This document shows, one piece after another, positions 12,965-48,800 of a DNA stretch of 64,000 bases. This DNA is from Tubulanus polymorphus (lineage: Eukaryota > Nemertea > Palaeonemertea > Tubulaniformes > Tubulanidae). The translations under genes and the position numbers were made by a program. The notes under the pieces were generated by a model. The model did no database searches and was not told the DNA's origin. It saw only the letters and a program-made list of their open reading frames with translations. Location of the stretch: contig NC_134025.1 in the NCBI RefSeq assembly GCF_964204645.1, positions 28,054,001 to 28,118,000 on the forward strand, written 5' to 3'. The first letter of the stretch is position 1; each line of letters starts with the position of its first letter.

Positions 12965-14179
12965 TTATGAGAATGAAACATCATACTGTGCATTCATAAA
13001 ATTAGCAAAATCTGTTGTGTTACAGGCTTGTAAGCGTAATTGATCCATCTTACTGGACAGTAGCTTATCAAGATCATCAGGAGATGATAGCTCTACTGAA
13101 TTATTCACTTTCATCGCGACTTCATCAACTAGCAATTTAGCGATCGTGTGGGTTAATTCAGCACAAATAACAGTTTTATCAATTTGCCAGTGGGTGTTCC
13201 ACTTTTGGCCAAATGACAAATACACCAGAGGACTGGGTTTAGGTCCCTGTTGGCTTTGGTATAAACCCAGAGCTCTTTTAAATGATCGAAAGCAAAATAC
13301 TTTAGTCGGTTCGCGTCGGTTTACTGAAGTTGCCTCATTTGTACAGCCTATACCAGCAAAAAAGACCTTACTGCGGCACAAACGATACACAAAGATGTCA
13401 CATGTTTGACTATCAAAACAAACTACTAAACCTCGCCTCAAACCTTCAAGCGCTTTTTTAACATTCTGTAAGCCTGATTCCAACTGTGGGTCTACAATTT
13501 CAGGAATATTTGGCAATATGATACAAACTGCATCAGATGGGCCATATAATTCAGTAGTGTTCTCGGCAGCAAATTCGTTTTCAACTTGAGAACAGATTCT
13601 CCACATATTACCAAAAAGATCCTCTGTCCTAACAGTTCCCCCTTTATACCTGATTTCTAAGGATAGTAAAGATTGGCAGCTTTGAGAGCAACTTTGGTCA
13701 TTAACAATTTGATCATTACTTTGAATTGTAACATTGGTTAATGTTGGATTCCACTCTGCAACAGTTTCAGGGATTGTTACATTATGAGGAGAGTTGCTGT
13801 ACCCTGGCTGAGTTTCCATTGGAATATTTTCTTGCTGATTTTGTTTTTCCTCATCAACGAATCGAAAATATTTGTGCAAATCATCTTCATCTGGTACTGG
13901 TAGTTCTTTGATATATTTGGATTTTCTTATGGCATTTCGAAACCGTGCCTTCATTTCTGAGATATTGATGTCGGAAATGTTCTTAGTTGCTGAACCTTTC
14001 AACAAACACCAATCTTTGAAAACCTTAGCATCTTTTGATTCGTTGTAGTCCGGTCTGCCTGCATGTACCCATCTAATACGAAATATTCTCTGATCTTCAT
14101 CAGACCATTCCAAACTGGGGCCATAGTTTCTGTCACACAATTTTTCTTCCAAAAACTGCACGAGATTTTGACGAGACAT
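12965..14179 (-). CDS. Interferon regulatory factor-like transcription factor, single coding exon
   Basis: The protein is 404 residues and is read without interruption from the ATG at 14179. An acceptor (TTATTTCAG) lies six bases upstream, so a non-coding 5' exon is spliced to it; the in-frame ATG further upstream lies in that intron and is not used. Residues about 5-105 form an IRF winged-helix DNA-binding domain: tryptophans W25, W37 and W57 in EWSDED, RIRWVHAG and DWCLLKG, then a basic helix (MKARFRNAIRKSKYIKEL) and the PDEDDLHKYFRF ending. A Ser/Asn/Gln-rich linker follows. From about residue 180 there is an IRF-association domain (SLEIRYKGGTVRT, GLVVCFDSQTCDIFVYRLCR, VFFAGIG, YLSFGQKW). 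IRFs act in the nucleus on ISRE sites, usually after C-terminal phosphorylation. Which IRF clade it belongs to cannot be told here. The IRF identification rests on both domains and is strong. Confidence 0.88.
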   Translation of the reverse strand: MSRQNLVQFLEEKLCDRNYGPSLEWSDEDQRIFRIRWVHAGRPDYNESKDAKVFKDWCLLKGSATKNISDINISEMKARFRNAIRKSKYIKELPVPDEDDLHKYFRFVDEEKQNQQENIPMETQPGYSNSPHNVTIPETVAEWNPTLTNVTIQSNDQIVNDQSCSQSCQSLLSLEIRYKGGTVRTEDLFGNMWRICSQVENEFAAENTTELYGPSDAVCIILPNIPEIVDPQLESGLQNVKKALEGLRRGLVVCFDSQTCDIFVYRLCRSKVFFAGIGCTNEATSVNRREPTKVFCFRSFKRALGLYQSQQGPKPSPLVYLSFGQKWNTHWQIDKTVICAELTHTIAKLLVDEVAMKVNNSVELSSPDDLDKLLSSKMDQLRLQACNTTDFANFMNAQYDVSFS

Positions 14180-14724
14180 GATTTTCTGAAATAAGAACAA
14201 TAAATCTATCGATTAAAAATCCCGCAGTTTCTTACTTAAAAACACTACCCTCAACAGAATATATCATTACTAGTCAGCCACTGACTCGTCGGTGGCAACG
14301 CAACCTGCCTCGCCTGTGCTTTTAGTTTCACACGATCGCGGGATATTTTTGGTGATGATGGCATGCAGCTTACTCGCCACCAACGTAACTAATTACCCAA
14401 GGCAAATAAATATGAATATAATATTTTGGGTTTCTACTATCATTACCTTTAATTGATATTCAATTGCGTCAGAGGATTCAAACTGCGTCTTCCAACATCG
14501 GTAGCAGGCACTACTATCGGTTTCAGTTCAATGTACGTGGGTTTTCCCATGTTTTTCTTACCAGGTACCGCAATTTTGTCCTAACATCACGTATTGTAAA
14601 CCACGATCGAACTACCTCTCACCAGCGCTCACGAACGGTGTTTAATATCTGCCCTCGAAGAACATCGATGATTCGACTTGGCCCAAATTCGCATGGGATC
14701 CGTTAAATATTGGCCCCTCCGAAG
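14180..14724. promoter_or_regulatory. Divergent intergenic region IRF/CASD1
   Basis: This 545-bp gap lies between the IRF coding start (minus) and the CASD1 coding start (plus). It contains the end of the IRF 5' UTR intron and, somewhere, the first non-coding IRF exon and the CASD1 promoter. An open stretch at 14464-14706 has no recognisable product. The divergent arrangement makes a shared promoter plausible. Confidence 0.45.
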
Positions 14725-28473: not shown

Positions 28474-31400
28474 TTATTGTAATTTTTTGCCCACTAAAAA
28501 TCTGGTAACTCGTTCTTTCACTACTTTCAAACTTATTCGGTCTGAAGATACGGTATTTTCTCTTATATATTGAACAAGATCTGTATAACCGAGGTGCGCT
28601 GCATACTCTTCTGAATTCATCCATTTAAACGTATCTTCTTCAACTGCTATCTGTAACATAGAACATTGTGTTAGTCGATGTTTCTTGAGAAAATCAACTT
28701 TCCATATACCAGGGTAAAGGTATTAATTTCAATGGGTAATTTTGATGGTTATATGGACTTAATTTCACTACAGTTTACTTATTTCAAATTAAACTTAAAC
28801 TATATGGAACTTAGTCCAGCCCGAAGGTAGCTGAGAAGTGTGATCTTTGGACCAGAGAATAAGCTGCCTGGACACCTTGCATTTCTACGCGTTAGGCTAA
28901 AAAAAATTGATACCTTGTTTCTCCGCTCTGCTGAGCTTAAATGTTGACCCGGCCGGCCGCCTATCTACCCTATACATTACTTTTTTTTAAAATCGTGATC
29001 AATTTAACCATAACAGACCCGGCCGCTATAGAAATGAACTGTTTATAAATTTTATCATATTTTACAAAAAAGACCCGGCCGCTGCGGAGAAACAAGGTAT
29101 CATTTTTGTTTAGCCTTACGTACCTTTTCTTTTCGTTTACAATCAGAACCGAGGTAGACCAGTTTCTTCACGATATCCGGTTGATTGTGCTCGAGAGCTA
29201 GAAACACAAGATCGCGAAAATTCATCCGCAGCGGAACTGAATACGGCTCCAACTGAAATAAATAGAAAACAATCAATAGAACACAACTATTAACTAATAT
29301 TTCGGAATGAGTAACACGCTACTTACCACTTTAGGAAATGATGAAAATGGATACAGCATGTTTTTAATCCCGCGCAGAAATAGAATGTATTTTCTATGTG
29401 GTGACTTCTTTGGGCTGACGATTATTTTCTTCAATGCTTCATACTGCAATCAAAACAATAACATCGTCATTTTCTGATGCACTTTAATTCAGCAACATTC
29501 AACCAATAGAATCTATGGCACGTGTACCTTCGTTAAAATGATCATCTCCCACTGGAGACCATAAACTTTCTGAAAAAGAATAATACGGTTGATGTCTATG
29601 TCAGGATTTTAAAGTTTTTTTCTGAACAAAACCTAGTTATGTACGCAATTTACCAATTTTTCCTGAGGTATGAAGTCAATATCATCAGCATAATCGGATG
29701 GAATTTTTCCCATCTAAAGACAAAAAAAAAATATCTGATACACATAATACATCCATCAAATCTTTTTTATTTTGCTTACTGTAGTCTATAAAATCTCCCG
29801 AAGGTATTTTGGATTTTTATCATTGGGCGTGTATTATCTATTTCTGTAGTCTAATATATTTTTGCATTTATGATACTACAAATATATAACTTAATTCTTT
29901 TATATCAGGAACAGTTGCTTTTCTGCTGATAAAATGAAATATAACGTATTGCACTAACCACATCCTCTGCTAGTTCATCAGCGTTGTATGATTTCAGAAT
30001 AGTCAGCAGATCTTTTCCACCTTCTCCCAAACTATATGCATAATGTAGCGGTGTTCTGTTCATCTGAATGGAGAAAATTAGGCTTTTTACTTTAACTAAG
30101 TCGAACAATGTTTAACGACTGCCACAGTTATTAGCAATTAGATGCATTACGTGCAAGGATTTATTGGGAAAATAATTAACAAATGAATATCTATCGATTG
30201 ACACTTTTCATGTTCTGATTAATTAATCAGACGCTCCATTTACGATTAGTTGATTGACAGGTTCAATGCATGCTTTCCCTGCGTTACTCGTACATTCATT
30301 TCCTCAACTCTTTCACTGCCATTTCATGCCGTCTAACCACAGCCAAAATTAAATCTTGCTGTCACTTTGTGTGACAGAATCAGAAAAAGGCCGCTCGGCT
30401 AACAAAATGAAAACGCGGAAATTTTTCTTTTCTGACAGGAAACCGTATCATAGGCAGGGAAATTACATAGCTCATAATTCTTTGCAACATAAAGTTGGAA
30501 TGTGATAGAATTTCCTCCGACTACTGCACAACTTAGCATCCTTGGTTTAGCTGTAGAATGCTTGACAGATTCCGACCAATAGCCGATGATTATAAAATAT
30601 TAACAGTGGTTATATACTATTTTTTTCTCATGAATGAATGAATGTTCATCAGCCACATTGAATCATGCACTGTCATATGAACACTGTGTTCTCCGAACGT
30701 CCAGATTCAAGCAGCAAGGTTTCAGCATAGATGAAAATATCAACAATTATATACTAAGGTAAGGTTAACAGATTTCTTTTAGACAAAAACTTCTTGATAC
30801 TAAACAGAAAATATGTTGCTAGAAATAACCAAATTTCAGGAAATGATGCTTGGACTCTCTCTTGAAATTAGTTTCTACTTGGCTGTCAGATATAACAAGA
30901 TATTCTCGTCATATACCGGGATAACGCTTGAGAAGTCAGTACCAAAAGATCCATCGACTTTTAGCTTGATTTTCATGAAAATATTCTAACCAGATTAAAT
31001 CATCATCTGATACTTCATCACCAGAGTTATGAAAGAATTAGTCAGCCGTGTGACCAGTTTCAGTCAATATGGAAAATGGAAGTCAGATGCCAGCAGTGTG
31101 AGGTGCATCTCTAAACTTACATTGTCTTTACTATTGACAACCGAGTCGCATTTCTCCAGTAGCATCTCCATAAAGCTTGTGTTACATCCGTGAAGAATGG
31201 CGAGAGTCAGAAGACATCGGCCAGCCTACAATCACAAGTCATGGTATTCTATCATATGAAATCCTGGTGACCTTCCATTATAGCTTTAATGCATTATAGC
31301 TTTAAAAATGTTAAAACATCAAAATATGAGGAATATTACTATTGACTCGAGCATGTTCGGTGCATCAATATCCTCGAACGATGTTTTAGCGAGTGACTTT

Positions 31401-34400
31401 TTTCATAATAGATTCTTTAGAGCACATCATTTGACAGACGGATGAAACCAATATCATATTCATTGCCCTTTGGGGGACTTAGTGCGCTAGCAACATGAAC
31501 GCAGTCATCATTGAAAGCATAATTCCATGTTCTCTTCGCTTACAATAAAACTCTAATGTGATCAGTATGTTTTGCGAAATATGAATTTTTCCTTAACGGG
31601 CAAAAAAGCCACTACGCCCTGAAGCGGTTTTTAATTGATTGACACCACCCAAATTACAAAAATTCTATCAAATTAAAGTGATTAAATACATTAGGATTCA
31701 ATACATCGTGTCTAAATTGAATGAAGAGAAATATCAATAAGTCGACGCAATTCTTTTGGAAATCGGAAAATTTGGTATGTCCAGAATTTTCCTGTAAATA
31801 TTCCAGTGGGATTTTGAGGCAAACACTTAGTGGAAAAAGCATTAACGACCAATATGCCTGTAAAGGCAATATCATTAGCCAAAGAAAAACTAACCAATCA
31901 CTATCGTACAGCCATGATATAATTACGCGGCACAATTTGTGCTAAAAACGTAAGGATTATAGTTTGCGCACCACACACTGTGTGCCAGTATAATTGTCAT
32001 GGGTTCAGTGAAGGCGCAGACGCGACAGTAAAATAACCAATTGCAACGCAGCTTCTTATTGATTAAACTGCTTGACGGAATACCGCTGACATCAGTGAGT
32101 CTACACGAGACTGATTCCTGTCGTTGACTAAAGGCCACAACCTTATTATTATAATCACGAATAGGTCTCCCCTGAATCGACATAACGCACAAATAGTCAA
32201 GCTAATTTTGCAATGACGACAATCTAGTTTCTAAACGCGAAAAGGAGAGAGAATCTGTCGTGCACTGACCCTATCTTTGAATTTCATCAATAATTCAGCA
32301 TTTTGATGATTATTCAGGAGCTCGATTACTCGTTCCTCCTTATCTCCTCCAGTTATCAAGCTCTGTATCCGTTTTACGTCATTCTGAAAAGAAAAAAGAT
32401 TTCGTCGAAAATGTTTATAATCTGCGCTTAGCCGAACTATATTATATGCTGTTATCAAAATGTGTTTATTACAGATCATGTTTTTCGTAAAATCTTTGTG
32501 GAAAATGTCGGATTACCTGCACATCGGGTAATCCTTTCAGGAAACTGGACACTTCCTCTGTCTCATTACCAGCCGCGTATATGTAGGAATCTCGCCACTG
32601 AAAACGTGCATTGTTATTATTTGGATTAAAACCGATATGATTTGAATAATGAAACAATTCAACTGACATTTCTGAAATCCCAACGTCATTCGATGATCAT
32701 TCGAAAAGATTAAATCTGAGAAATTGAAATCGGATACTTTGCTCTGACTATAAAATCGACTTTCAGTTTGAAAATCATTTATAATTAATTTTCAGAATTC
32801 GTCCCCTGCAGTTTCAACAATTCAAAATAATCATGATTAGTTTCGAAACCATGGAATAAAATCAAGAGACGCTGAGCTCAAAACTTGCAAATAAAGACAT
32901 ATTGGATAGAAATATATATATATATATATATATTTGCTGGCTCAAAATTTACAGAAGATGTTGAAGATATATTATATTGGCTAGACATACATTTGAAGGT
33001 ATTTGATGGTATTTGATGGTATTTGAAGGTATTTGATGGTATTGCCAATTCACAGAAAAATACAGTATGAGATGTATACAATTTGTTACTCGCAATGACT
33101 TTTTTGTCGAACTCTAAACGAAATAAGATTTGTGCGATTTTTGCATTAAAAATAATTTCTAACATTATAAGACATCCCGTTGGATTGTGAGAAAAATAAA
33201 ATACCCTATTGGTGTATATCTACCTGAAGATGAGCTGGCTAAATATTTGAAATTTTTTTGTCACCAAATACACCATGAACTAACTGGTTAGGTTTTTTTA
33301 TATAAATATATTACATTATTGGTAGATTATTACGTTTGATTAACTGTAGAGATGATCTACCCAAATTCACGAACAAAAAACTAACATCGCCTTTCCATGT
33401 TTCATATTACAATTCATTTATGACAGCCTCAAGATTTTTGAGCTTATTCATCATTAAGCCAGCTTAATCAGTAATAATATGTCCTAGGAGAGTTTTCTCC
33501 AGTTTCTACCCCACAGTCCACCAGTAATTTCAGCTGATGTACATGAATCTGATACATGGTTTCCCTCATCAGAAATATCTTTCAATTAGCTATGATATTC
33601 GTGATTTTATTAATTACCTATTTCCCACACACCTGAATTTATCTATAATTACGCTAACCTGATATTCGATGAAAAAATCTTCATAGCCTTCGACGAAAAG
33701 TTTCCAAAGTGTATCCAGTTTTGTGCCTCTGATCAATTCAATGAGGCGCTGAAAGAGATTTTCCAAATCAGTCGGTGACCAGTTACAAATTAGGGACGGA
33801 TCCAAGAGGATGGTGCAGGAGGTGCGCACATACCCCCTAAAAATGTCAGGTTGCCGGAAATTTCATGGGAAAATGAAATATATCAAACTGAGTGCTCAAA
33901 GTATAATCCTCTTTAATTATATCAGATAAATCAGTTGCGTAAAGATTTTAAATGCAATTTTATTAGATGTAATTGAAATTCCATATCTCTTATATAATCA
34001 TTATAAGTTCGTAAGTTTGAGAAAGGAATTGAAATCAAAAATTAAAAACTTTTTATATGAACCTTATCAATTGCAGTTACAACACTTGTTTGTCCAGTCA
34101 ATCTCGCTATATTCCTCGCTGTTGCTCCAGTCTAAAATATCAATTTTCAACTCTTTCAGCTGCGAAAACTGTAGTCAGATAAAGATTGTGGAAAGTTTTC
34201 GAAACTTTAGAATTGTTCAGAATCTCGATACGATCAGCCATCGTTTAGAGCAGAAATGAATTTCATTGCATAATCGGTAAAAAATTCTCAATATGCATTA
34301 TTGAATTTCTGCTAACAAAATTTGAATATAAATGGGGTTTTATGCAGATCGCTTCGAGGGACATCCATGTCATTTCGGGAAAATATTCAAAATCGAAAAG

Positions 34401-37400
34401 CTATTAATGTGATGGATAAGAATCAATTAGTTGCAGATTGAAATGAATGGATATTCGCCGCAAGATATGGGTCTGAACATAACTGAAAATATATCCAGGG
34501 CATAGAACACTGCGGGTATTTAATCAGTTGCAAATTTCACATCAATAATATCAATTGACGAAAAATGCGTGCAATAATGACGTAAAGATTTTTGGCAGCG
34601 ATATCACTGGTCAGAACTGAGTTATCAACTGTGAAAATAATATCCAAGTAACCCTAAGGTTCATCTTTTTATCCATTCCACAAAGTTGAGTCATCGTTCA
34701 GTATAAAGCGTTGGTCGATTACAGATTTATTGAAACGTACGCGTAAATAATGAGGTTTCACAGTTTATCAACTTAAGAAATGTAGCATTCGCTTAAACTC
34801 AAAGCTTATAATCAATTCTTCTCTGTGAATATGCTAGCAAAACAAATGGCAATAAACTTACATCATCTCGGGCGGCGATATCAACTCCTTTAGCCAGAAA
34901 ATACTGAATGAAATTCAAATTACTTTCTTCATCGCAACGATCAACAAGATAATGTAACGCAGTTCGTCCTTTCTGTAATGAAGAAAAAAATGATCTTTCT
35001 TTTTAGTATTAAGTAGAACGTTCGACTAACCAATAGAAATGATTCCTCCGTGGTAGACACAGTAGAGACAGGCCAAAATCCCAGGAACAATAGCGCTCCA
35101 GTCTGCGCTACAAACAATTGCAAAAAAGACATCTTCGAAGCAATACAACAAAAAACGTCACATCACCTCATATTTAAAAAAAAAAACGCCGGGAAATTAT
35201 CTATTCTTAATCATCTATTTTCTAGTGCCATGATTTACGCACAATTTTCTCTAAATTCAGATCATATGACACGGGGCATATGCCTGCCGGCAAAATGATA
35301 ATCTACTCTATGATAAACGGAATAATAAACAAAGCTTTGAGTAATAGCCGGACACCGATTTGACAAAATCTACGTAAATTATGCCTCCGGCAAATTAGGC
35401 ACATATGCTGCTGGGGCGAACGAGAATGCCACGGGCGACGCCAACGGCAGCAGATCAATCCTAACCACATGCTGCTGAGCACCGACCTTAGTAGGAAGTA
35501 ATTGCGTGGATTTACAGTTGTAAATAAGAAAATTTAGCGTGATATCATCAACACTGCAGGCGACTGGGCTAATTAAATAGTACAAGCAGAGCGAGATGAA
35601 CCAAAATGCATGTGACAGCAAAACTGTCACAAACATTTACGATTCATTTCGGAGTGTACTCAATAAAACATCTTTTAATTAATCTAATTGTAATGGACGA
35701 ATTCTTCTATCCATTTACCGAAGAACAAAAATGTAAAAAAACATCTTCTCATGGGTTTCGGTTTTTCAAATCCCAAAGATGAGCCATTCAGGCTCACATT
35801 ACTTTATAGTAAGACAGTAAACAATAGGAGTATAATGTAGAAAGGGGATATTATCAGTGGAAATGAGTATAAAAGAGGGAATCATGTGGAGTTGATGTCA
35901 TGCTTGTCTATGTGTGGTTGATTGTAAATGACACCACAGCATCACAACATACAGAAACTATCATCAGCCTTTTACAGGACTCTGGACTCATTCAGGACTG
36001 ATAATTTATACCAATGACTATTCTCAAGAAGTGATTATTCACAGTCACTGAAAACATGTTTAGATAACTTATTTCGGCAAATATCGCAACTTTTTCTGCA
36101 GTTTCAACTAGGGCTTTTCTCTTCCATTCCATACCGTTCAATAATGTGACAAATAACATCAAGTTGTTCTAACCATTTTGATGGACATTGATCGAATTTC
36201 CAGCTCGGACAAGGAATCAACTTATCACAGAAAATAATGTAGTTGCCATTATAGATTTCTACTTAGTTTCTGGCAATGAAAGTCTTATCGAGGAGAGAAG
36301 ACAGTTCGGCATTTCTGTGTAGGATAAATACAGCATCTTCGAGGTCTATAACAATGTCGAGTTAATGCGACATTTGAAGCGTGAAAGCAACTGAGCTGCC
36401 GGTCCATTCATTTTATATACCCACAAGCTCTATCAACTAAGTTTCACGACTGAGAGCTGTGCTTCTATCATCTACCGTCAAGTCATTAAAATGTGCCCCG
36501 GGTACGCGTCGTATAAAACCTTTGAACTAAATAAAAACCCGCTGCTGAGATAGGTCAAGTCATTCTTTGCGTGACAAGTAATAGGAAATAACGCAAATTA
36601 TTCATAGCTTAAATCATCGGATTTAGAAACACGAAACACATTTCAAACTCGTCTTTTACAGTCAGGAATGTTCGTAATAATATAGGGCAAAATATCGTTC
36701 TTTATTTACTGATAAATCGAAAGAAATAGGTATAGAAAATGATTTTCAAACTTTAACAACTTGCTGCTTTTTTTCTATTTCTTAACAAACAAACAGGTCA
36801 GTATTAGATGAGCATAGAAAAAGAAATGATCAGAATTAAATGGGCTATGTTGAAATATAATCTCGTGGACAAAAATATTTTTAGGACAATCGATAATGAT
36901 TGACATGTGACAAATGTGCCAGAAAACTGGTTGTTCCAGTCACTGGAAGCTACCCGACTCGCTGTTTATTGAACCATCAAGAAACTTGACAAGCCTTATA
37001 ATGGTTTTACCGTGTAACCCCCAGGATTCTAAACCTGAAAACTATATCGAGAATAACAATAAGGATGCGGGTGCTAATGATTTAAACAAGACAAAATGAC
37101 AAGGCCGGGATCGTCTTACAATATTCACAAATTGACATGGATATCATTTCGAAAAAAAGTAAACCATTTCGGCAACTTCTCGCAAGAAAATCTCTCCGAG
37201 ATTCCTTTCATTTCAGTGTGATGGTGATTTTTACGGTATTTCTTATTCCAAATGAGATGAGGTGGAAATATGAGTTGGTGGATGAAAATGGGGGGTAATG
37301 CGTTAGCTGTTGTTAACAAAAACAAGAAAAGAAGCCGAAATACACCAAAAATACAAAACCCTCAGCAAAAAAATGATGCGGTATCACATTTGGAGCTCAT

Positions 37401-40400
37401 TATTTTGTAGAACAGTAATGAGTTGTCAGTTATTCCAGGTACACAGGAAGGCTTAATCATCATCACAGTCCCATTGAGAAGATCATGTCACGAGACAGCG
37501 AACACATTCGAAAATCTTTCACATCTCAGTGGAATTCACAGCATCATTCACTAATTAGTGACAAATAATTGATAAAGATAACATGTCCGTTTTAAATAAT
37601 CCGTATCGGTGTCAATTCCACTTCCTAAACACTCTCATCACATAATTTATTCCTTAAAATTAACATAATCCATTTTCGTTTCCGATGTTTGTTCATTCCT
37701 TTTCTTCACTTTTTCCAACAAACCTTTGAAAATTGTCAAACATTGAACATTTGCTGTGATAGCAATCGAGTGCGAAAACCTATAGAAGCCTAGCGATATA
37801 TACCAGCATACAAATTAGTTAACCGTAGTTATTCAATGAATGAAAAACCCTTATATTTTAATAAAATCAAGTAAAATTAGTTGATATTTTCAAATAAAAT
37901 GAGCGAGTTTCCGTTGACAGCATTGACATAATCAACAGAGATTGTGTGCATGTTATCAGCCAGTGAAAGGATGATTCTTGTCAAAACCATTTTCAAAGAA
38001 ATGTCCATTTTTAACTACATTTTTAGATTTTACAATATTACATAAACGATAAGAAAAACCGTCATCAATAGATGTAAGCGACAACTCAGCAGCCGAATAA
38101 TATTTTTTCATTATTCACTTCAAACATCTCAATTGATTTGACTGTCAAATGTCCGTGAAATTAATAGATCAGCCTAAATTCTCTTAATACCAACTAAACA
38201 GAATATCACATCATATACCACGAGCATCAATCTTACGAGAACGTTCCTACAATAATCTGCTTTTTTAGAAACTACGGAATAAAAATGTAATCGTAAGTAT
38301 GTTTCAAACGATCCAATCCGAGATATCGAATGATACTAATTAGGCACGTTTAATCAAGCAATCAAATATGTCGTACTTACATAAGCAAGTTAATAGTTCC
38401 ATAGTGTAACAGGACCCAACTGACGACTGGCACCCAACTAAATAAAAAGCTTCTTATTTCTTCGACAACACACAGATGATGAACGTTTATTTTTAGACGT
38501 TAACGACAAATATGCGTTTGTTGCAAAAAATAAGAAAAGAGCATATGGCATATTAATTTTCATCCAGAATGACGCCCTTCAAATTACCGAATTTTCTGCT
38601 CGAGTTGAACATCAAAGAGGGACGACGGTACAAACGAATGCCCCGAGCCCACTGTGCGCTCATGAAGCACTTTCAGATTGTAAGAATGCCTTACAAATTT
38701 GCATAACATAAAATTGTGCCTAGTTACTTTTTCCAATATAATGAGTGAATTGTTTGATGAAAGGGGGCCGAAAATCTACTCCGTTTTTCCTTCGGGGAAG
38801 CCGAGTCTGTACCCTAATTCTTTACATCCTATTCATTCATCGTGAAAAAATAGCCGGTAAACTTATAGCTCGAGTAAAGACCACTACGGTTATATAACCG
38901 AAACCTGGATATCTAAAATACCGAAAATATTCGAATACATTTCGTCAAATTTCGAAAATAACGAGAAAATTGCACAGAAGTCATCGCTGCACATTGTTAT
39001 TTAAGATCCCTATCGACCGGGAGAACATCCTTTATGCTGAATGTCCAATCAGCATTGAGCAAGAACTGTTTCAACACTGCATAATTCATCATGATGGGAA
39101 ACAAGAAAAATATTTATCACACCACAATCCGACAAGGTAAGTCAGTTTACCTATCATTTCATAATCATCCTAACCGAAGATTTGACATATTTGAAATGCA
39201 GTAAATAGCCTTTATAAAGGACAATATATTTCTAGGATAGAACAGTGACGATATCAACTGAATTTCTCCGAGAAAATCATCGCTAAATACTGTGAATGTC
39301 ATTCTCTCATCATCCGGGCACTGCTTCACAAATTTACTCCATTTCAAGCTTGGTAAGTAATACTACTCTTTATTCTCTATATCAGACAGCATTGTGCTAA
39401 TACTAAACTCAGTACAATACCAAACAAAATATCTTTAGGGCAAAACTTCAGATTTTCCACAAAAAATTTCTCGCTATCAATTTGTAACATCGGGCTCTTT
39501 GTGTCAGTGATATCTTTATTTTTTTTTGTTCCAAAATGTTTTAATTCACTCAGGCTATTCAGTAGATCAGTTCACTATGGAATTCAATACGACAAAGCCA
39601 TTTTAGATTATATTCAATGCTATATTCTGACAATAATAGTTCTATTCTTCTTAGGATGAAATATATTTCATCCGATTATCAAAACTGTATTCATTCCAGA
39701 AAAGATTATACATTTCACATATGTAACCAGACAGTGGCAATTTATACAATTTGGAAATGTACTAAAAACATATATATCTTTGTAACAAAGATAAAAGTAT
39801 CTAGGTATAAAACCCAAAACTTCAATATCAACAGAAATTCCATATCATTCAATAATTCTTGTTTAGCTTATTTTGTCAAGAACAGGCGACCCATTAGCAC
39901 TTTTTAGCAAAATCAATAGTACTAGAAATGAAATTAACTCGTTTCAACACAAAGAACCAAACGCACATTTCATAATTCATTCATTAGGAAAAGACCCACT
40001 TTCTGGAAATAAATCCGCTTTCCAAATCATTATTTCATTAAAAAGATTTTCTTCTTCAAATCTTTAAGGGGAACTTATAATTTTCTGATATTTTTGTCGT
40101 GGATGTTTGTAATTCATCATTATCTGATCTTACCTCATCCTTAGCCTTCGGATCAGCACCAGATTCAAGTATACACTCAGTTATCGCTGGTGATATATTT
40201 TCTCCTTTCAATGGAAATGCTTCATAGTAGAGCGGACCCTGATAACAAAAACACATATCATTTCAGTTTTTTGAAGCCTTAAAAATCACCTTGAGTGGTT
40301 CGGCGTGCCTTTTCCTAAGTAGTGAATGATCAAACATCGAAATAATTAGCTTATAATCCCACTCAGTGAGATTTTTTGATATGAAATGCTTAGCTCACTG

Positions 40401-43400
40401 TCCTGATTGGCATGTTTTAGAACGCGATATAAAGACGCAAGCAAAGGGTATCTTTTCTTTCCACAATAACGGCAACAATGCGTGGATCCAGGGGACACTG
40501 AGTTGTTGACGGACAATAGGTTTCTGGATAATGAATGGGTGTGGGCTCAGTGACACACGTGTACAGTTATAAAAATTAGGGAGTCATTCCATCGTATCAT
40601 GTTTAACAAACTGCTCAACAATATTGCACCTGTTTTATATCATCTTTGAAGAGTAACATCTCATTGTACATTTCAATCTGTTGAGAAATCTCGATGTGAG
40701 ATGATCTCATTTTATAATCTGAATGCTATTAGAATAATGCAAAAATTAGAAGTAGAAATATCACCCTCTTCAATATCAAACTGTAGTTAGAATCTAAAAT
40801 CAGTCATAAATATCAACATCAAATGCACAAAATTCTGTTTTCTGATGAGGAACATACGGTTTTAAGCGATAACAGGAAAGGAAAGAGCAAAATTTGATGG
40901 TCATGAATTGCATTAGAATCCAACAGCGGCCAACAATGCATTAAGCTTTCCAAAATCCACCTGAAGGCAAACGAAAACTGCAATAGGATACAACATGCCA
41001 TCAAATTCTCGACTAACGTTAAACAAACTTAATTCTTTTAAGAATAATATTTCAAGAATTCTGAAAGAGTGATTTGTGAGCGAGATCCCCGGAGGTATAA
41101 AGTCATTAGATCGCATGGGTCTAATGTTATTGCCTACAGAATTTATTACGTGGCCAGAGTTTTCATAAGCAGGAGAATAATCCGAAAAGAGAGCATTTAT
41201 AAAACATGAAATCACATGAGATCGGGAATTTAGAAGTAATAATTTCTGCTATTCAGTGAAAAAATCTCTGTTAGTAGAAATATGAAACGAACATTACTCA
41301 TCACTGGGCTCTTGCGTGAATATTCATTGAATCAAGTTACAGATAAACTGAAAACTGACACATTTGAATACAATTCCTATAATAACCACTGATAATAATC
41401 ATATTTTTGCTGAATTAATAATTACGCGCATAACTCTTGGGAGACAATTCAAAAATTTCATTCATAAGGTAACAGTTTTCGATGGATAATTAGTCCGATG
41501 AAATGTTGAGATTCAATTTTTTCTACGCAAGAAAATGTCCTTTTCCAAATGAAATACAATGACAACAGCCATCTCACTGATTTCTAGCCCACTGTTTCCA
41601 TGCGAACAGAGGCTACTTATTTCAGCTCCCATTATTTTGATTAAAGGTTGTAGTTAATAGCTTTACCCCGAAGCATTGCGGTATAAACTATCGGTCAACG
41701 TGTGCAGAAACCATTAGTTCGCCCACTGTGGTCCGATGCAGTTAGTTGTGATTCAGATCTTCATTAGTTTCATTTAAAAATCTATGAAGAACTAGTTTCG
41801 GTGACTACAAGTACGTCGATCGATCGCCATACACGACTGAAAAGGTTGCGAGGTCAATAGAAAAACTGCAAATTATTTCTATTAGAATTACATGAGAGAA
41901 AGTGCAGGCGAATAATGCATGAATGAACACAAAATCGCAACCAGAAAAATCCAAGAACTGGAGAGTATGTAAAAGTGTCCATTTTATTGACATTCTAATG
42001 ACAAGCCTTCCACCTCCTACCCGTGTATCAATTAGTGACTCATGTCGTGATAGCCCAGGTGTGCAAGACATTTTCATCTTGTTTGGCCCCACAGTCCTTG
42101 TTATCGATGACAGGGAAAAAAGAGATGCATCCTCATAGATAAACATATCCACGACGACCACTGAAAGCGAAACACGCGAGGTTTTCATCACAAAAGCACT
42201 GATTGGGTATAGGAAGGATATCGGATTAAAATATCTTAGAAGTCAGACCACACTTTAATGAAATCTGACAAACGACAAACATATTTCGCACAAAATAGGA
42301 ACCTTGAGAAATTGGAACAAAAGAGCTTTAAAGATTTTGAAATTATCCCAGAAAACCTTCTCTTCCGTTAGACCAATGACTCTAAGTCTTAAACACTTTA
42401 AGACTGAAATCTCGATGAAACAGTTTTTAGTCGGTTCTCTTTGTATACCATAGAAGGACGTCGTCAGAACCGTGTATTCTCGGATAAACAAGTTCATGCG
42501 TACAAAATGATAAAAAATCCGTCTCACACCGGTGATGATGGTAGTGGAATATCAAACTTGCCAGTTGTTACTACTCGTAGGGATCAGAGATTCTCCTTGA
42601 TCTGAGAACTTCACAGAGTGTTCACCTCATCAGAATTCATACGCTGTTCCCCTGAATCTTTGTTCTTTTAGCATTCCTGATGGATCCACTTTAAACTATA
42701 CCCAAACCTTGATTGCCGCAGTGACAGTAGTCTCCCATGTGGTGCTCTCTCTTTCCTCATGAAACATACATTAGATTATTGTCACTGTGCAAACATAGCC
42801 CATTAAATTAAACATCACCAGTTCTTGTCAATAGGGGCTGGGTGGAGCTGCAAGATTTGCAGCGTGGTGAAAGATCAACAAGAAAACCATAAGTGACTTC
42901 ATTGACCTTTCAAACAAATGTATTTTCAGAAACGAAATACATATCGATCAATGCCTTAAAAAAATAACTCAAATTTCAGAGCACAGACATCCACCTCTTC
43001 ATCCGAGACAAATCAGTTGTAAACACTGTTCTATTTTGAGGTGCGTAGCTCAATTGTTACTCGATGAAAATTCATAATGAAGGGAGAAAAATGATGTGTG
43101 TGACCAAGTTGTGACCTGAGCACGATTTTTCTAATATCAGGATACAACTTCAGAAAGCTTTTCTACTTAATTCGCTCGCTACTGGTTTAGCACGGATGAA
43201 GTGACAGCAATGATGCCCGCGGCTATCCGCGCCGACGTCACTGTCGTCGCAGCAAAATGCAATCACTTTGCTGAGATTTTACATAAAAATATTGACGAAT
43301 GCGCTCACATCATCGTATGGATGTGCTGCTGCTGCTGCTGCTGTAGCTTGCGTTTTGCTCAACGATTATAATAACTGTAATGTAAAGCAGTCCGTCTGTT

Positions 43401-45818
43401 CACAAATGACATGACTCAGGGCATTGGGTCATGTGACTATAATCTTATAAACAATTAGTTCGTTACAAGGCTGCCTTCGATGGAAAAACTCCGGCAATGA
43501 ACATTTTTTTTATATTTGCGATAATCAAATTTAGTAGTTTGGATCAAAATTTAACATTCTAGTGTTAGGCCTACGTATTACCAAATACTGGCGATGAAAT
43601 AGAAAATCAACCAGACGACACAAATTAGATAAATAAAATTATCCGGGGGCCAAAGCTCGTAATGGGCGTATTCGCTCTTAGATAAAATGACGGAAATTCA
43701 GTCGCGAAACAACTAATACTAATCGATACACACATTGTTCATCGATCAGTGGAACTAATCAAATTGCCAATATTATGTTATGTCACCAGCGTTTCTTTGT
43801 TTTTTAAAACGTATTCAGCGTAGAAAGTAAATGAGCAATCGTGTTTATAAATGTCAGAGAGACATAGTAAAAAATTGATAAGGATCGATTACATGAATAT
43901 GACTTTCCAGGAAAATGGTGTAATTAAAGGAGAGCCGGATTTATGAATTAATTTGTCTATCATTATTATCTCTGTTTCCAATTTCATGAGTGTTTTTATC
44001 AGACATGTACCAGGATATACCGTCCGTACGAGGTGTCAATGAATATAAATCATGACAGATGCAAAGCATATCAATGGTCTATTGACACTTATCACTTACC
44101 TACTTATGATAAGTGATAAGTGCCAGTTAACGCTCAACATAAGATCACCGACTAACTCGGATCAGCATTAAATATGCCTAGCTCTTATGGAAATTGCGTA
44201 ATTACGCAGGTACGGCGGAGAAGTAGCTGAAAATATTGGATAACATCGCTAGTTTATGCCGGAGACATCTTCCGGTGATCAATATAGCCATCGGCAAAGA
44301 AAATAGCTTTTACCATGAGAGATTTACATACCCTGAAGAAATGCCGGATAGATATTGGAATATTGACATTGGCTCCGTTTGTACACAGCAATGACACAAT
44401 ATCATGTCGATTCATATCAATAGCATATTGTAGAATATGTTTCTTACCATGCCCCTAAAAGACAAGGTCATATACAGCTGAAATACGTATTTTGATGACA
44501 GTTCGGTCAAAGTCAATTCTTCAGAATGTATATCAATACCTCATTCAGATAATTCACTTTACAGGATGTTTTTTTCAAAGCCTCTTTCACTTTCTTTACA
44601 TCATGTTCTAAGACACCATAAATGCAATTCTATAAAATATAAGTATGCATCATTGTTAGTATCGTTACAGCGCTAAAGTCTATTTTTATATATCTGAAAT
44701 GAGTCCTGATAGATACTATGTATAATTAATCAATGGATTGGAAGCAAACTCACCAATGTATATTGATGACTATCAATAATGCCAACTATATCATGAAACT
44801 GTTTAGAAGCTGCATGCTGACGCAAAGTTCGTCCATCCTAAATAAATCAGATGAAAAATCAAATGAAATACTTGTAATTGTCAAAAAAGTAAAGATTGGT
44901 AAATATCTTTTGAAGCTCACCCGGCTGGCATCATAACGACACCATTTGTGTAAGAGTTGTTTGAAATTATGGACGTCATGGTTATCAACGCATTCAAATA
45001 ACCCAGGCTAAAATTTGAAATTCTTAAACTTTATTCTTTCTCAGTAAATCTATAATTAACAAAGCACATTGGAAAGGGGGATTAACCTGATACAATTCAT
45101 ACAGTTTCTTCCATGTACCATTTTTAGTCGGTAGGTCACAAGCCAGTTTACCATCCTAAAATAACAAATATTAAAGCATCAAGCTTATGTGATACTAAAA
45201 TATGAATGTACAGGAATAATGCAGATTACACGGCTTGATATTGATATTACCTTATTGCGTAACGTAGTATTAGCTCCAGCCATCATTAAGAGCGGAACAT
45301 TGAAACTTATTCCAGCTAATGCTGAATTATGTAAAGGGGTATTACCATGCTATAATGATACGATAGATATAAGATAATTCCCTCATTTCAAAACAGTTAA
45401 TCTACAAATATAATCCAGATACCTTGTTTTGAATGTTAATATCGACACCAGCTGATATCAAAATATGAAATATATTTGGTTGATAGACTGCAGCAAGTAA
45501 ATGAATATAAGTATTTCCTCGCTGAAAATAATCAGAATAGAAATAAAAATAAATAGCTGGAGTGATAAATGTGTCTTGATGAAAGGCCCAGCGCTTATAA
45601 TATCACCTTGTCTCTCCATCTCAGATTCTCTTTCTCTTTTAAACATATCTTCACATTTTCTATATCGCCGTTCGCAATCGCATTGCCAATTCTAGTCTGA
45701 AATATTGAAAACAACAATTAAAAACACATCATCAGCAAACCCCATGAAACTAGAAAAACCAACCTTTGTCAGTTCTGATAAGTCCCCTGCCATCATTGCA
45801 TAGTTCCGCAACTCAAAG
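28474..45818 (-). CDS. Large ankyrin-repeat protein, family not recognised
   Basis: Minus-strand exons in transcript order: 45765-45818, 45607-45696, 45423-45521, 45251-45349, 45087-45155, 44921-45007, 44754-44837, 44540-44629, 44332-44454, 40630-40677, 40134-40238, 34862-34972, 34063-34131, 33659-33836, 32517-32597, 32270-32383, 31121-31225, 29959-30063, 29654-29713, 29528-29569, 29327-29443, 29124-29252 and 28474-28650. The predicted protein is about 735 residues. Ankyrin repeats are clear in HGNTPLHNSALAG, KGRTALHYLVDRC and MNRTPLHYAYSLG; others are degenerate. The frame is open upstream of the first Met (45796), so coding may start in an earlier exon. I see no signal peptide, membrane helix, death domain or kinase domain, so it is most likely a cytosolic scaffold. 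Every exon except 33659-33836 has a length divisible by three and the introns fall between codons. Introns 35-40 kb and 40.7-44.3 kb may hide further exons. One gene is assumed; two adjacent genes cannot be excluded. Confidence 0.72.
28895..29115. mobile_element. MITE, PIF/Harbinger-like, beside an ankyrin-gene splice donor
   Basis: The element is 221 bp with long terminal inverted repeats of about 32 bases (GGCTAAA...ACCTTGTTTCTCCGC and its complement with few mismatches), flanked by TTA on both sides (28892-28894 and 29116-29118). A three-base TTA duplication fits the PIF/Harbinger superfamily. The interior is non-coding and contains the motif GACCCGGCCG three times, a GC-rich contrast to the surrounding AT-rich DNA. 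The right end lies only eight bases from the exon 29124-29252, inside the intron by the splice donor. Confidence 0.8.
30064..31120 (-). other. Ankyrin-gene intron, about 1.06 kb
   Basis: This is the intron between exons 31121-31225 and 29959-30063. I see no open frame or repeat of note. Confidence 0.55.
32991..33043. repeat. Tandem decamer, five copies of ATTTGATGGT/ATTTGAAGGT
   Basis: Five consecutive 10-base units occur, two of them with the AAGGT variant, in an intron of the ankyrin gene. A pure (AT)n run lies just upstream at about 32911-32933. Confidence 0.85.
34973..40133 (-). other. Long ankyrin-gene intron, about 5.2 kb
   Basis: No exon continuing the ankyrin pattern was recognised in this stretch. 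It is AT-rich. The only noteworthy open frame is the 85-codon minus-strand frame at 35379-35636, described separately. Short plus-strand frames at 36914-37099 and 39617-40067 show no family features. Confidence 0.5.
35379..35636 (-). CDS. Candidate small secreted or membrane protein nested in intron
   Basis: An uninterrupted 85-codon frame starts at the ATG at 35636. The first about 27 residues form a strong hydrophobic segment (FWFISLCLYYLISPVAC) that resembles a signal peptide with a plausible cleavage after Ala-Cys; the rest is mildly hydrophobic and Pro/Ala-rich, with three further cysteines or fewer. I recognise no family, and chance frames of this length occur in AT-rich introns. It could also be an exon of an alternative transcript. 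Weak support. Confidence 0.2.
   Translation of the reverse strand: MFVTVLLSHAFWFISLCLYYLISPVACSVDDITLNFLIYNCKSTQLLPTKVGAQQHVVRIDLLPLASPVAFSFAPAAYVPNLPEA
43323..43343. repeat. (CTG)n trinucleotide run
   Basis: About six to seven CTG units occur in an intron of the ankyrin gene. It is a simple microsatellite. Confidence 0.85.
44086..44122. repeat. Perfect 13-bp inverted repeat, 11-base loop
   Basis: CACTTATCACTTA at 44086-44098 is exactly complementary to TAAGTGATAAGTG at 44110-44122. It would form a stable cruciform or RNA hairpin in the ankyrin-gene intron. The stem is too short for a typical animal microRNA precursor. No function is evident. Confidence 0.75.
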
Positions 45819-48800
45819 CTAAACATTGAGAAAGGAAATTAAAAGTCTTTTATCATTTGCTTTCGATTGGGTTAGGATTGCTACAGTAAGCTACAGCTTG
45901 GACTTATAAAAACCATGGCAAAAGAGTTACCTCTACTCTATATTCTGATATTTGAAGGTTGTCATGGGTGTGGATACTTCCAATAATAGTAATATAGTAC
46001 GTACAAACTGGATCTATTTAAATACAGTCACTGATGAGACTGAGATTGAGCTGAGGACCGAGTTGAATGCGGTAATATCTCTAGACTTAGCCATCATAAC
46101 TTAAAAGAGATAAAATTCGCCATCACTTTTGGTTTTGACAGAAAGGAAGCACATGTTTCCCATGGTGAATGTAAACAATTTCGGGCGCCACCTACTATCA
46201 ATGTGGCACCGGACCTATTACTGCAGTCCAATCTGTAAAATAGCGAGTATACTGTGGCACGTGAGCATTGGTGGAATTCCGTCGATTGAAAAGTAGTACG
46301 CAATTAAGCAAATTTATTAAACCTTAACCAAGCCTGTAATATAAAACGCCATATGCAATAATGGGACTATGTCAGACTAAAGCGATTATATGTTCGAAGA
46401 GGTTTTTGCTAACTTGATTGATTAAAGGGACGTACTGTCTTCGTATTTTGTCACGCACTATACTGCGTGTCGCGTGTATTAGTGCGCGTCCAGTGAATGA
46501 TTGACAGCTCCTGAAAGGGGAAGCCATCTTGGAATGTAGAGTCTGTGTTTTCGATAGTATTCTTCGGAGAAAGTGATAATTTTACCGAGTGGCTGTGGAA
46601 TTAGCTCGACGAGGAATACGCAGGCAGTGTAAGCAGGTCCTGTTTTAGAGGTCAGCCTATATTTCATTTCGTTATTTAATGCATTTCGAACTGTAAAATC
46701 GATTTTTAATCGGTTCATAAGTGTCAGTCTAAAAAACGTCGAGTTTGAAAGTAGCGGCGATCGAATCGGTGCCGATTTCTTTAAATTTCGTAACGGTGTC
46801 TTGATTTTTAACTATCACTAATTACTCATTGAAGTTATAATTGTGTTAGTGTAATTGTAGAGTATTGTTCTTATTCAATTAAACAGTAGCATTGTTGTTA
46901 GTGATTTGCCTTCTCAATCCGTCTTCTTGCTGGACGGTTTCTTTCCGACTGACTGCTGGTGTGGTCCGCGTCGGCCTCTTGTTGCTTCTGATTCATGTAT
47001 TTTGATTTCCTTACAAAGATCTACAAATGGTCGAGAGAGAGAGAGAGAGGCCCCCTATCCTACTTATTCATCTGATGGGTGCGGTGCTTTATTTTTTTGG
47101 AGCACGCAGCAGACGAATAGTTGACCAGCTGTATTATGCTCGCTGTTGATGATCATCCCACCCAAAAACTACGACCAATATCGTTCTTACTGGTAACAAT
47201 GTCCCTAACAAACCCTTATCTACAGTAAAACTACCACCGCGAAGTGGAAAGTTGACCTAAACTGCAGTCTTTCTAAGTCGCCATTTATTGAATCTTAAGT
47301 GAACCAGTCTACTGGATGCCATCCTACCTATTTCCTGTTAGCCCTAGGATCAGTGGTCCATGACTATAGTATTATTGTAGACACAGGAATGCGGCTTTAT
47401 TGGTGTGGTCAGTGGAGCTTAAACTGCCAGTTGACTGCACTCGATTGGCAACAAGTCAACTGAGACAATTGTCATTCAAAGCAAACATGACAGGTTTGAA
47501 TATTGAGTCAGCCGATTGGAATTGCAGTTGAGCGCTGATATTCTTTATAGTGAGACCTCGCTAATATCAGAGTCCAGTATTCACCTGCAGTATTTCCTGT
47601 CTGTTTTGTTATTAGTGTAAGTCAGGGTTTTTCGACATTTTGCTGAATATCAAAGCAGCACGGTTTTATGTACGATAGTTAGGTTATGTCAATCTTTTTT
47701 CATTGCTAAAGTTTTACCATATTTTCAGCTTTATATCGGTGTACAATCTATATAGGGCTAATACCAACTGGCTAGGTACTCGCTGGTATTCATAATATTT
47801 CATGGAAACATTCTGTTCGAACAATTAGCCATGAGTCAGCAGCAGAGGCCAGATTATCATAGTAAATTTTACTTTGATAATTCCTACTATAGTACCTTTA
47901 ACCTACATTGTAGGCGTAATTAAATTTTGCTCTGTTGAAAGGGTTAGTATATTAAAGAGTAGGTTCAGTTGAGGGTTTCCAGTAAAAGATCAATGTGGTT
48001 TTGCTTTCATCTCAACCGTCACTCTCAATAAAACCAGCAGAACTAGCGGCGCTGCTTACAAGTTTCTCACAACTCTGTTCATTGTATTTATTTATGATAG
48101 TAAATTACCTGATAAATCTAATGTTACAGGTTTCAACTGGTCATGTTTTGCCGTTTGATGCCGGAAACCTATCATGATTGTGTGGAATGCTTCTATAGAA
48201 AAAATATGTTCAAGTGGGGTTCAATGCGGTCGGTGAAAGTCCTTGAATTTAGCTCATCGGAATTTTCTATCATTCAGAGAAACATTATAAAATTTTATAG
48301 TTGTGTTAAATTTTCGTTGAATATGTGTAAGGCTTACCTGTAATACCTCAAAAATCCTGCATCCCCTAAGAATCTTCGATATATCCACCAGCGGAGTTTC
48401 TGATGATTATTTCTCCGCAGTGAAATCTATTGGGGGATTTATTATTTATGACATACCGACTACATTTACCACGTTCAGTTCCAGTCTCATTAGACTATGT
48501 TAATGCATTCGGGAAAAGGATTTGTGATGAAGGGTTGTAGCCGGGTTCTACCTGTAAGACGAAGATGCATTGATTGAAATCCTATCACCTAGCTATAGCT
48601 GGCTATTCATCGCTAGGAGAGAGAGAGAGAGAGAGAGAGACAAATAACCGATGATGAGGGATAATCATTGACGAAGTAGCGCAGAAATCCTGAATAGCGC
48701 AATCGTAATAAATAACTGGCCGTAGGCTTCTTCCGCTCTGACTAACTCGACGGTAGATTTTCATAGGGCCAGAAAATCAATTCACGATGCCGAGAGTTTG

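Follow-up and report, generated by a model that had tools for sequence, protein, structure and literature searches.

The window analysed here is a stretch of 64,000 nucleotides of NC_134025.1 (positions 28054001-28118000; contig C1 of G000, a genome of 268 Mb in 77 contigs). It carries an ankyrin-repeat gene on the minus strand at window positions 28474-45826, hereafter the window gene, for which we predict 22 coding exons of 42-177 nt. All 22 are multiples of three, and the 21 introns of this minus-strand model are without exception GT-AG and in phase 0. The reading frame opens with an ATG at 45826, closes with a TAA whose last base is at 28474, and gives a predicted product of 702 aa. The exons, with the evidence that places them, are as follows.

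Exon 1: 45764..45826 (-), 63 nt, ATG start, in-frame stop upstream, AAG|gt donor
Exon 2: 45607..45696 (-), 90 nt, begins at repeat register 4; de novo chain and register profile
Exon 3: 45423..45521 (-), 99 nt, single ankyrin repeat, register 1-33; paralog splicing and register profile
Exon 4: 45251..45349 (-), 99 nt, single ankyrin repeat, register 1-33; paralog splicing and register profile
Exon 5: 45087..45155 (-), 69 nt, truncated repeat; de novo chain and paralog splicing
Exon 6: 44921..45007 (-), 87 nt, PGL...WC segment common to the paralogs; de novo chain and paralog splicing
Exon 7: 44754..44837 (-), 84 nt, repeat, register 1; paralog splicing and register profile
Exon 8: 44540..44629 (-), 90 nt, with an earlier donor giving a possible 72-nt form; paralog splicing
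Exon 9: 44332..44454 (-), 123 nt; paralog splicing
Exon 10: 40134..40238 (-), 105 nt; de novo chain
Exon 11: 34862..34972 (-), 111 nt, single ankyrin repeat (Pfam Ank positions 2-33 match residues 305-340); de novo chain and register profile
Exon 12: 34063..34131 (-), 69 nt, repeat, register 1; register profile
Exon 13: 33659..33748 (-), 90 nt; de novo chain
Exon 14: 32517..32597 (-), 81 nt; de novo chain and paralog splicing
Exon 15: 32270..32383 (-), 114 nt; de novo chain and paralog splicing
Exon 16: 31121..31225 (-), 105 nt, repeat; de novo chain and paralog splicing
Exon 17: 29959..30063 (-), 105 nt, repeat; de novo chain and paralog splicing
Exon 18: 29654..29713 (-), 60 nt, truncated repeat; de novo chain and paralog splicing
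Exon 19: 29528..29569 (-), 42 nt; de novo chain
Exon 20: 29327..29443 (-), 117 nt; gene model
Exon 21: 29124..29252 (-), 129 nt; de novo chain and paralog splicing
Exon 22: 28474..28650 (-), 177 nt, TAA stop included

The least secure exons are 12, 19 and 20, on account of a poor donor or low similarity; the start of exon 1 is also not certain. A sequence-only reading of this DNA had counted 23 coding exons, 22 of them divisible by three; the divisibility stands, but the count does not, as we find 22 exons and all are divisible. Its lone exception was probably exon 1, where its upper limit of 45818 fits a weak AG (score 4.1), against our ATG at 45826. The neighbours of the window gene comprise a Ras-family GTPase, an IRF-like transcription factor, an EF-hand (calmodulin-like) protein and an armadillo gene, which we take to resemble beta-catenin. 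The IRF-like gene (12965-14212, minus strand) is an uninterrupted 415-aa ORF with IRF DNA-binding and IRF-3 domains and is intronless in this stretch.

Because our initial list of candidate exons had been filtered for phase 0, we performed retests in which this filter was dropped. A stringent de novo chain, open to all phases and using splice and codon scores only, recovered 13 exons, all of them present in the model and all of the 0-0 type; looser settings added mixed-phase false exons, as expected with a crude scorer. When the protein of the paralog on contig C2 was spliced onto the locus with any intron phase allowed, 16 of 20 introns were in phase 0; most introns coincided exactly with the model, and the remainder fell where conservation is low and the sites are weak. 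Moreover, among open candidate exons flanked by good splice sites, 32 of 93 in the gene span are of the 0-0 type, compared with 10 of 103 in the rest of the strand. The probability of finding 21 of 21 introns in phase 0 is 5e-7 at p=0.5, and 9e-5 at the average of the ankyrin genes of the same genome, in whose automatic gene models 41 of a total of 64 introns are in phase 0. Exon lengths divisible by three and phase-0 introns, as first read from the sequence, are thus upheld by phase-free tests.

The position of the exon boundaries within the repeat was determined with a 33-residue profile derived from the genome's own ankyrin repeats. Register 1 (xGxTPLH) is the best start for exons 3, 4, 5, 7, 11, 12 and 16 and the second-best for exons 17 and 18, which confirms the proposal that repeat-type exons begin at a shared xGxTPLH point. 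Overall, registers 32-4, which correspond to the inter-repeat loop, contain ∼16 of the 21 boundaries (P ∼1e-8), the registers of degenerate exons being approximate. The model and the register profile together bear out an ankyrin gene in which exon and repeat unit correspond and every exon is symmetric. The short exons 5, 7, 12 and 18 may cap sub-arrays. Bjorklund et al. 2006 (PMC1553488) report that exon junctions are over-represented in the linkers separating repeated domains and that ankyrins expand in multi-domain blocks; among the papers available to our search, none dealt with ankyrin intron phase.

A Pfam search with the joined 702-aa product, which had been suggested as a check, gave ankyrin families solely: PF12796 with 106.6 bits (cut-off 27.3) and PF00023 with 70 (cut-off 21.1), and nothing but ankyrin at E up to 1. 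In this search, the ZU5, UPA and death domains that mark ANK1/2/3 ankyrins were not found, nor did Pfam detect in the 702 aa any ion-channel family that would indicate TRPN/NOMPC or TRPA. Matches in the PDB are to designed ankyrin proteins, ankyrins, tankyrase and proteins of this sort. The protein family, not recognised at first reading, is therefore still not recognised for the whole protein, since Pfam and PDB yield ankyrin repeats alone. Ankyrin repeats and degenerate ankyrin-like repeats would make up nearly the whole product, which, from its fold class alone, is most likely an intracellular protein-binding scaffold.

Four relatives of the window gene are present in the same genome: L027 (C2:5.73 Mb), L028 (C1:26.25 Mb) and a tandem pair, L029a and L029b (C9:10.18 Mb). 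Their identity is ∼22-29%, the repeats align colinearly with all four, and their tree is star-shaped, its branching weakly supported. They resemble the window gene in encoding a colinear divergent protein with the PGL...WC segment and in sharing introns 14, 16 and 17 where these are covered, but differ from it in having far fewer first-half introns, or phase-1 introns. CaaX-like C-termini, ACQLL and CTIM, occur in L027 (end 7506) and L028 (a 389-aa minus-strand ORF), which suggests, from these residues, prenylated, membrane-tied ankyrin proteins; the window protein does not end in such a motif, and a hidden CaaX exon was sought downstream of its gene and none was found. A structure prediction for the C2 paralog from a two-row alignment (mean pLDDT 34) was set aside.

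The C2 paralog also bears on the unity of the window gene. Introns 9 and 10 are long (4.1 and 5.2 kb) and exons 9-13 are poorly conserved, as would be the case if two adjacent genes met at one of these introns. However, one open frame of L027 aligns with window protein residues 7-420, corresponding to exons 1-14, and further exons beyond this frame match window exons 15-21. Since a single ORF spans their equivalents, exons 1-14 belong to one gene. We therefore regard two genes as very unlikely here, and the evidence runs against a split into two unrelated genes, which the sequence-only reading had named as an outcome that would refute it.

Comparison of the intron positions reveals large differences within the family. 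Introns 14, 16 and 17, all in phase 0, are common to the window gene, L027 and L029b (intron 17 of L029b within a few residues) and are the only ones common to three family lineages; intron 21, also in phase 0, is common to the window gene and L027. The 17 further phase-0 introns are private to the window gene within the family. None of the four other copies has an intron at the positions of introns 6 and 7, and the two copies that extend over introns 10-13 lack these as well. Introns 1-8 are missing altogether from two paralogs. L027 and L028 each encode the first half in a single exon, and L028 has no intron at all. The pair L029a and L029b has private phase-1 introns near window protein residues 108, 146, 217 and 262, and L029b another near residue 454; throughout this tandem pair (L029:2100-8300), private introns are nearly all in phase 1.

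We also considered whether the introns derive from introners. Compared with one another, the introns of the window gene show one 22-nt match between different introns and no other similarity. Intron 21 contains, adjoining its donor, a MITE-like element of ∼225 bp (28890-29122) whose ends, AGGCTAAA...TTTAGCCT, are inverted. Across the genome, at least 40 copies were scored as 97-100% identical and a first look gave ∼2,370 candidates, indicating that this MITE family is young. Thirty inspected copies, whose flanks were read by eye, have no fixed GT...AG at their ends. An introner origin was rejected, as the introns of the gene have no common sequence and the inspected MITE copies no fixed GT...AG ends.

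How the array and its introns arose can be read in several ways. Symmetric 0-0 exons, several of which begin at the same repeat register, speak for recent exon duplication and shuffling, with resulting isoform diversity, and expansion by exon duplication had been suggested from the sequence. However, the exons of the window gene resemble one another only weakly, their order is colinear with four deeply diverged paralogs at ∼25% identity, and other ankyrin genes have the same layout. Recent expansion is not borne out by these data, no recent case of shuffling was seen, the repeat order being colinear in all paralogs, and we consider this scenario very improbable. Weak exon similarity and colinear order indicate instead that the repeat array predates the family. 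Isoform diversity as such is possible, as symmetric exons would permit frame-preserving skipping.

A more serious contender, although still an unlikely one, is intron gain. The ancestral gene would have opened with a long exon and contained a few introns in phase 0 (14, 16, 17 and 21), the window gene would have added ∼17 at repeat boundaries and the C9 lineage would separately have added phase-1 introns. The absence of introns 6 and 7 from every other copy and of introns 10-13 from both informative ones, the single-exon first half of two paralogs and the restriction of three-lineage sharing to introns 14, 16 and 17 all agree with such a history. However, some targeting cause would be required for 17 separate insertions that are without exception in phase 0 and for the most part at repeat boundaries. 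G follows the junction in only ∼6 of 21 exon starts, so that insertion at a plain AG|G site is not apparent; the introns lack a common sequence and the layout is the same as in other ankyrin genes of the genome. Within the family, the intron sets are largely non-overlapping and each is uniform in phase: the window gene has 17 of its own in phase 0, the C9 pair ∼5 of its own in phase 1, and the C2 and C1 copies 0 in their first half. That such sets reflect single-phase bursts of gain at repeat boundaries, and not loss, seems to us a rather remote prospect.

On balance, we favour a single scaffold-type ankyrin gene whose array predates the family split and which kept its introns while the paralogs lost many. 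Retention is favoured because 17 independent phase-0 gains, mostly at boundaries, need a cause and because ankyrin genes of this genome often have the layout. Assembly of the array would predate the split and probably took place in a deep ancestor, through the duplication of exons that carried repeats. The window gene would then retain the one-repeat-per-exon, phase-0 layout found in several ankyrin genes of the same animal; its paralogs on other chromosomes would have lost many introns, and the C9 pair would also have acquired some in phase 1. With paralogs of 0 and 13 introns in the same coding stretch of one genome, the family could be used as a small system in which to weigh the gain of introns against their loss. 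The differing intron content of the family is of modest interest; the layout of the window gene is itself ordinary, since three other ankyrin loci of the genome share it.

In these three loci, introns are mostly or wholly in phase 0 and fall at the same repeat point, whereas the remaining ankyrin genes have mixed phases. The locus at C4:7.69 Mb, which from its repeat sequence we take to be an ankyrin (ANK1/2/3-type) gene, has phase-0 exons of 99, 198, 297 or 396 nt cut just before xGxTPLH. Its 33-residue repeats are regular, often with several per exon, whereas those of the window protein are degenerate and of varied length, with no other domain. The array at C2:22.73 Mb, presumably NOMPC/TRPN-like, has mostly a single repeat per exon, phase 0 and the same register; the window protein differs in having no detected channel domain. 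At C5:5.93 Mb, a gene that we assume to be Kidins220/ARMS-like has exons of 99 and 198 nt, again in phase 0 and in the same register, but its repeats are more regular, and the window protein has no non-ankyrin Pfam family. The one-repeat-per-exon, phase-0 architecture is thus of an already known kind, to which the window gene conforms, adding one more, unnamed ankyrin family to the known link between repeat unit and exon.
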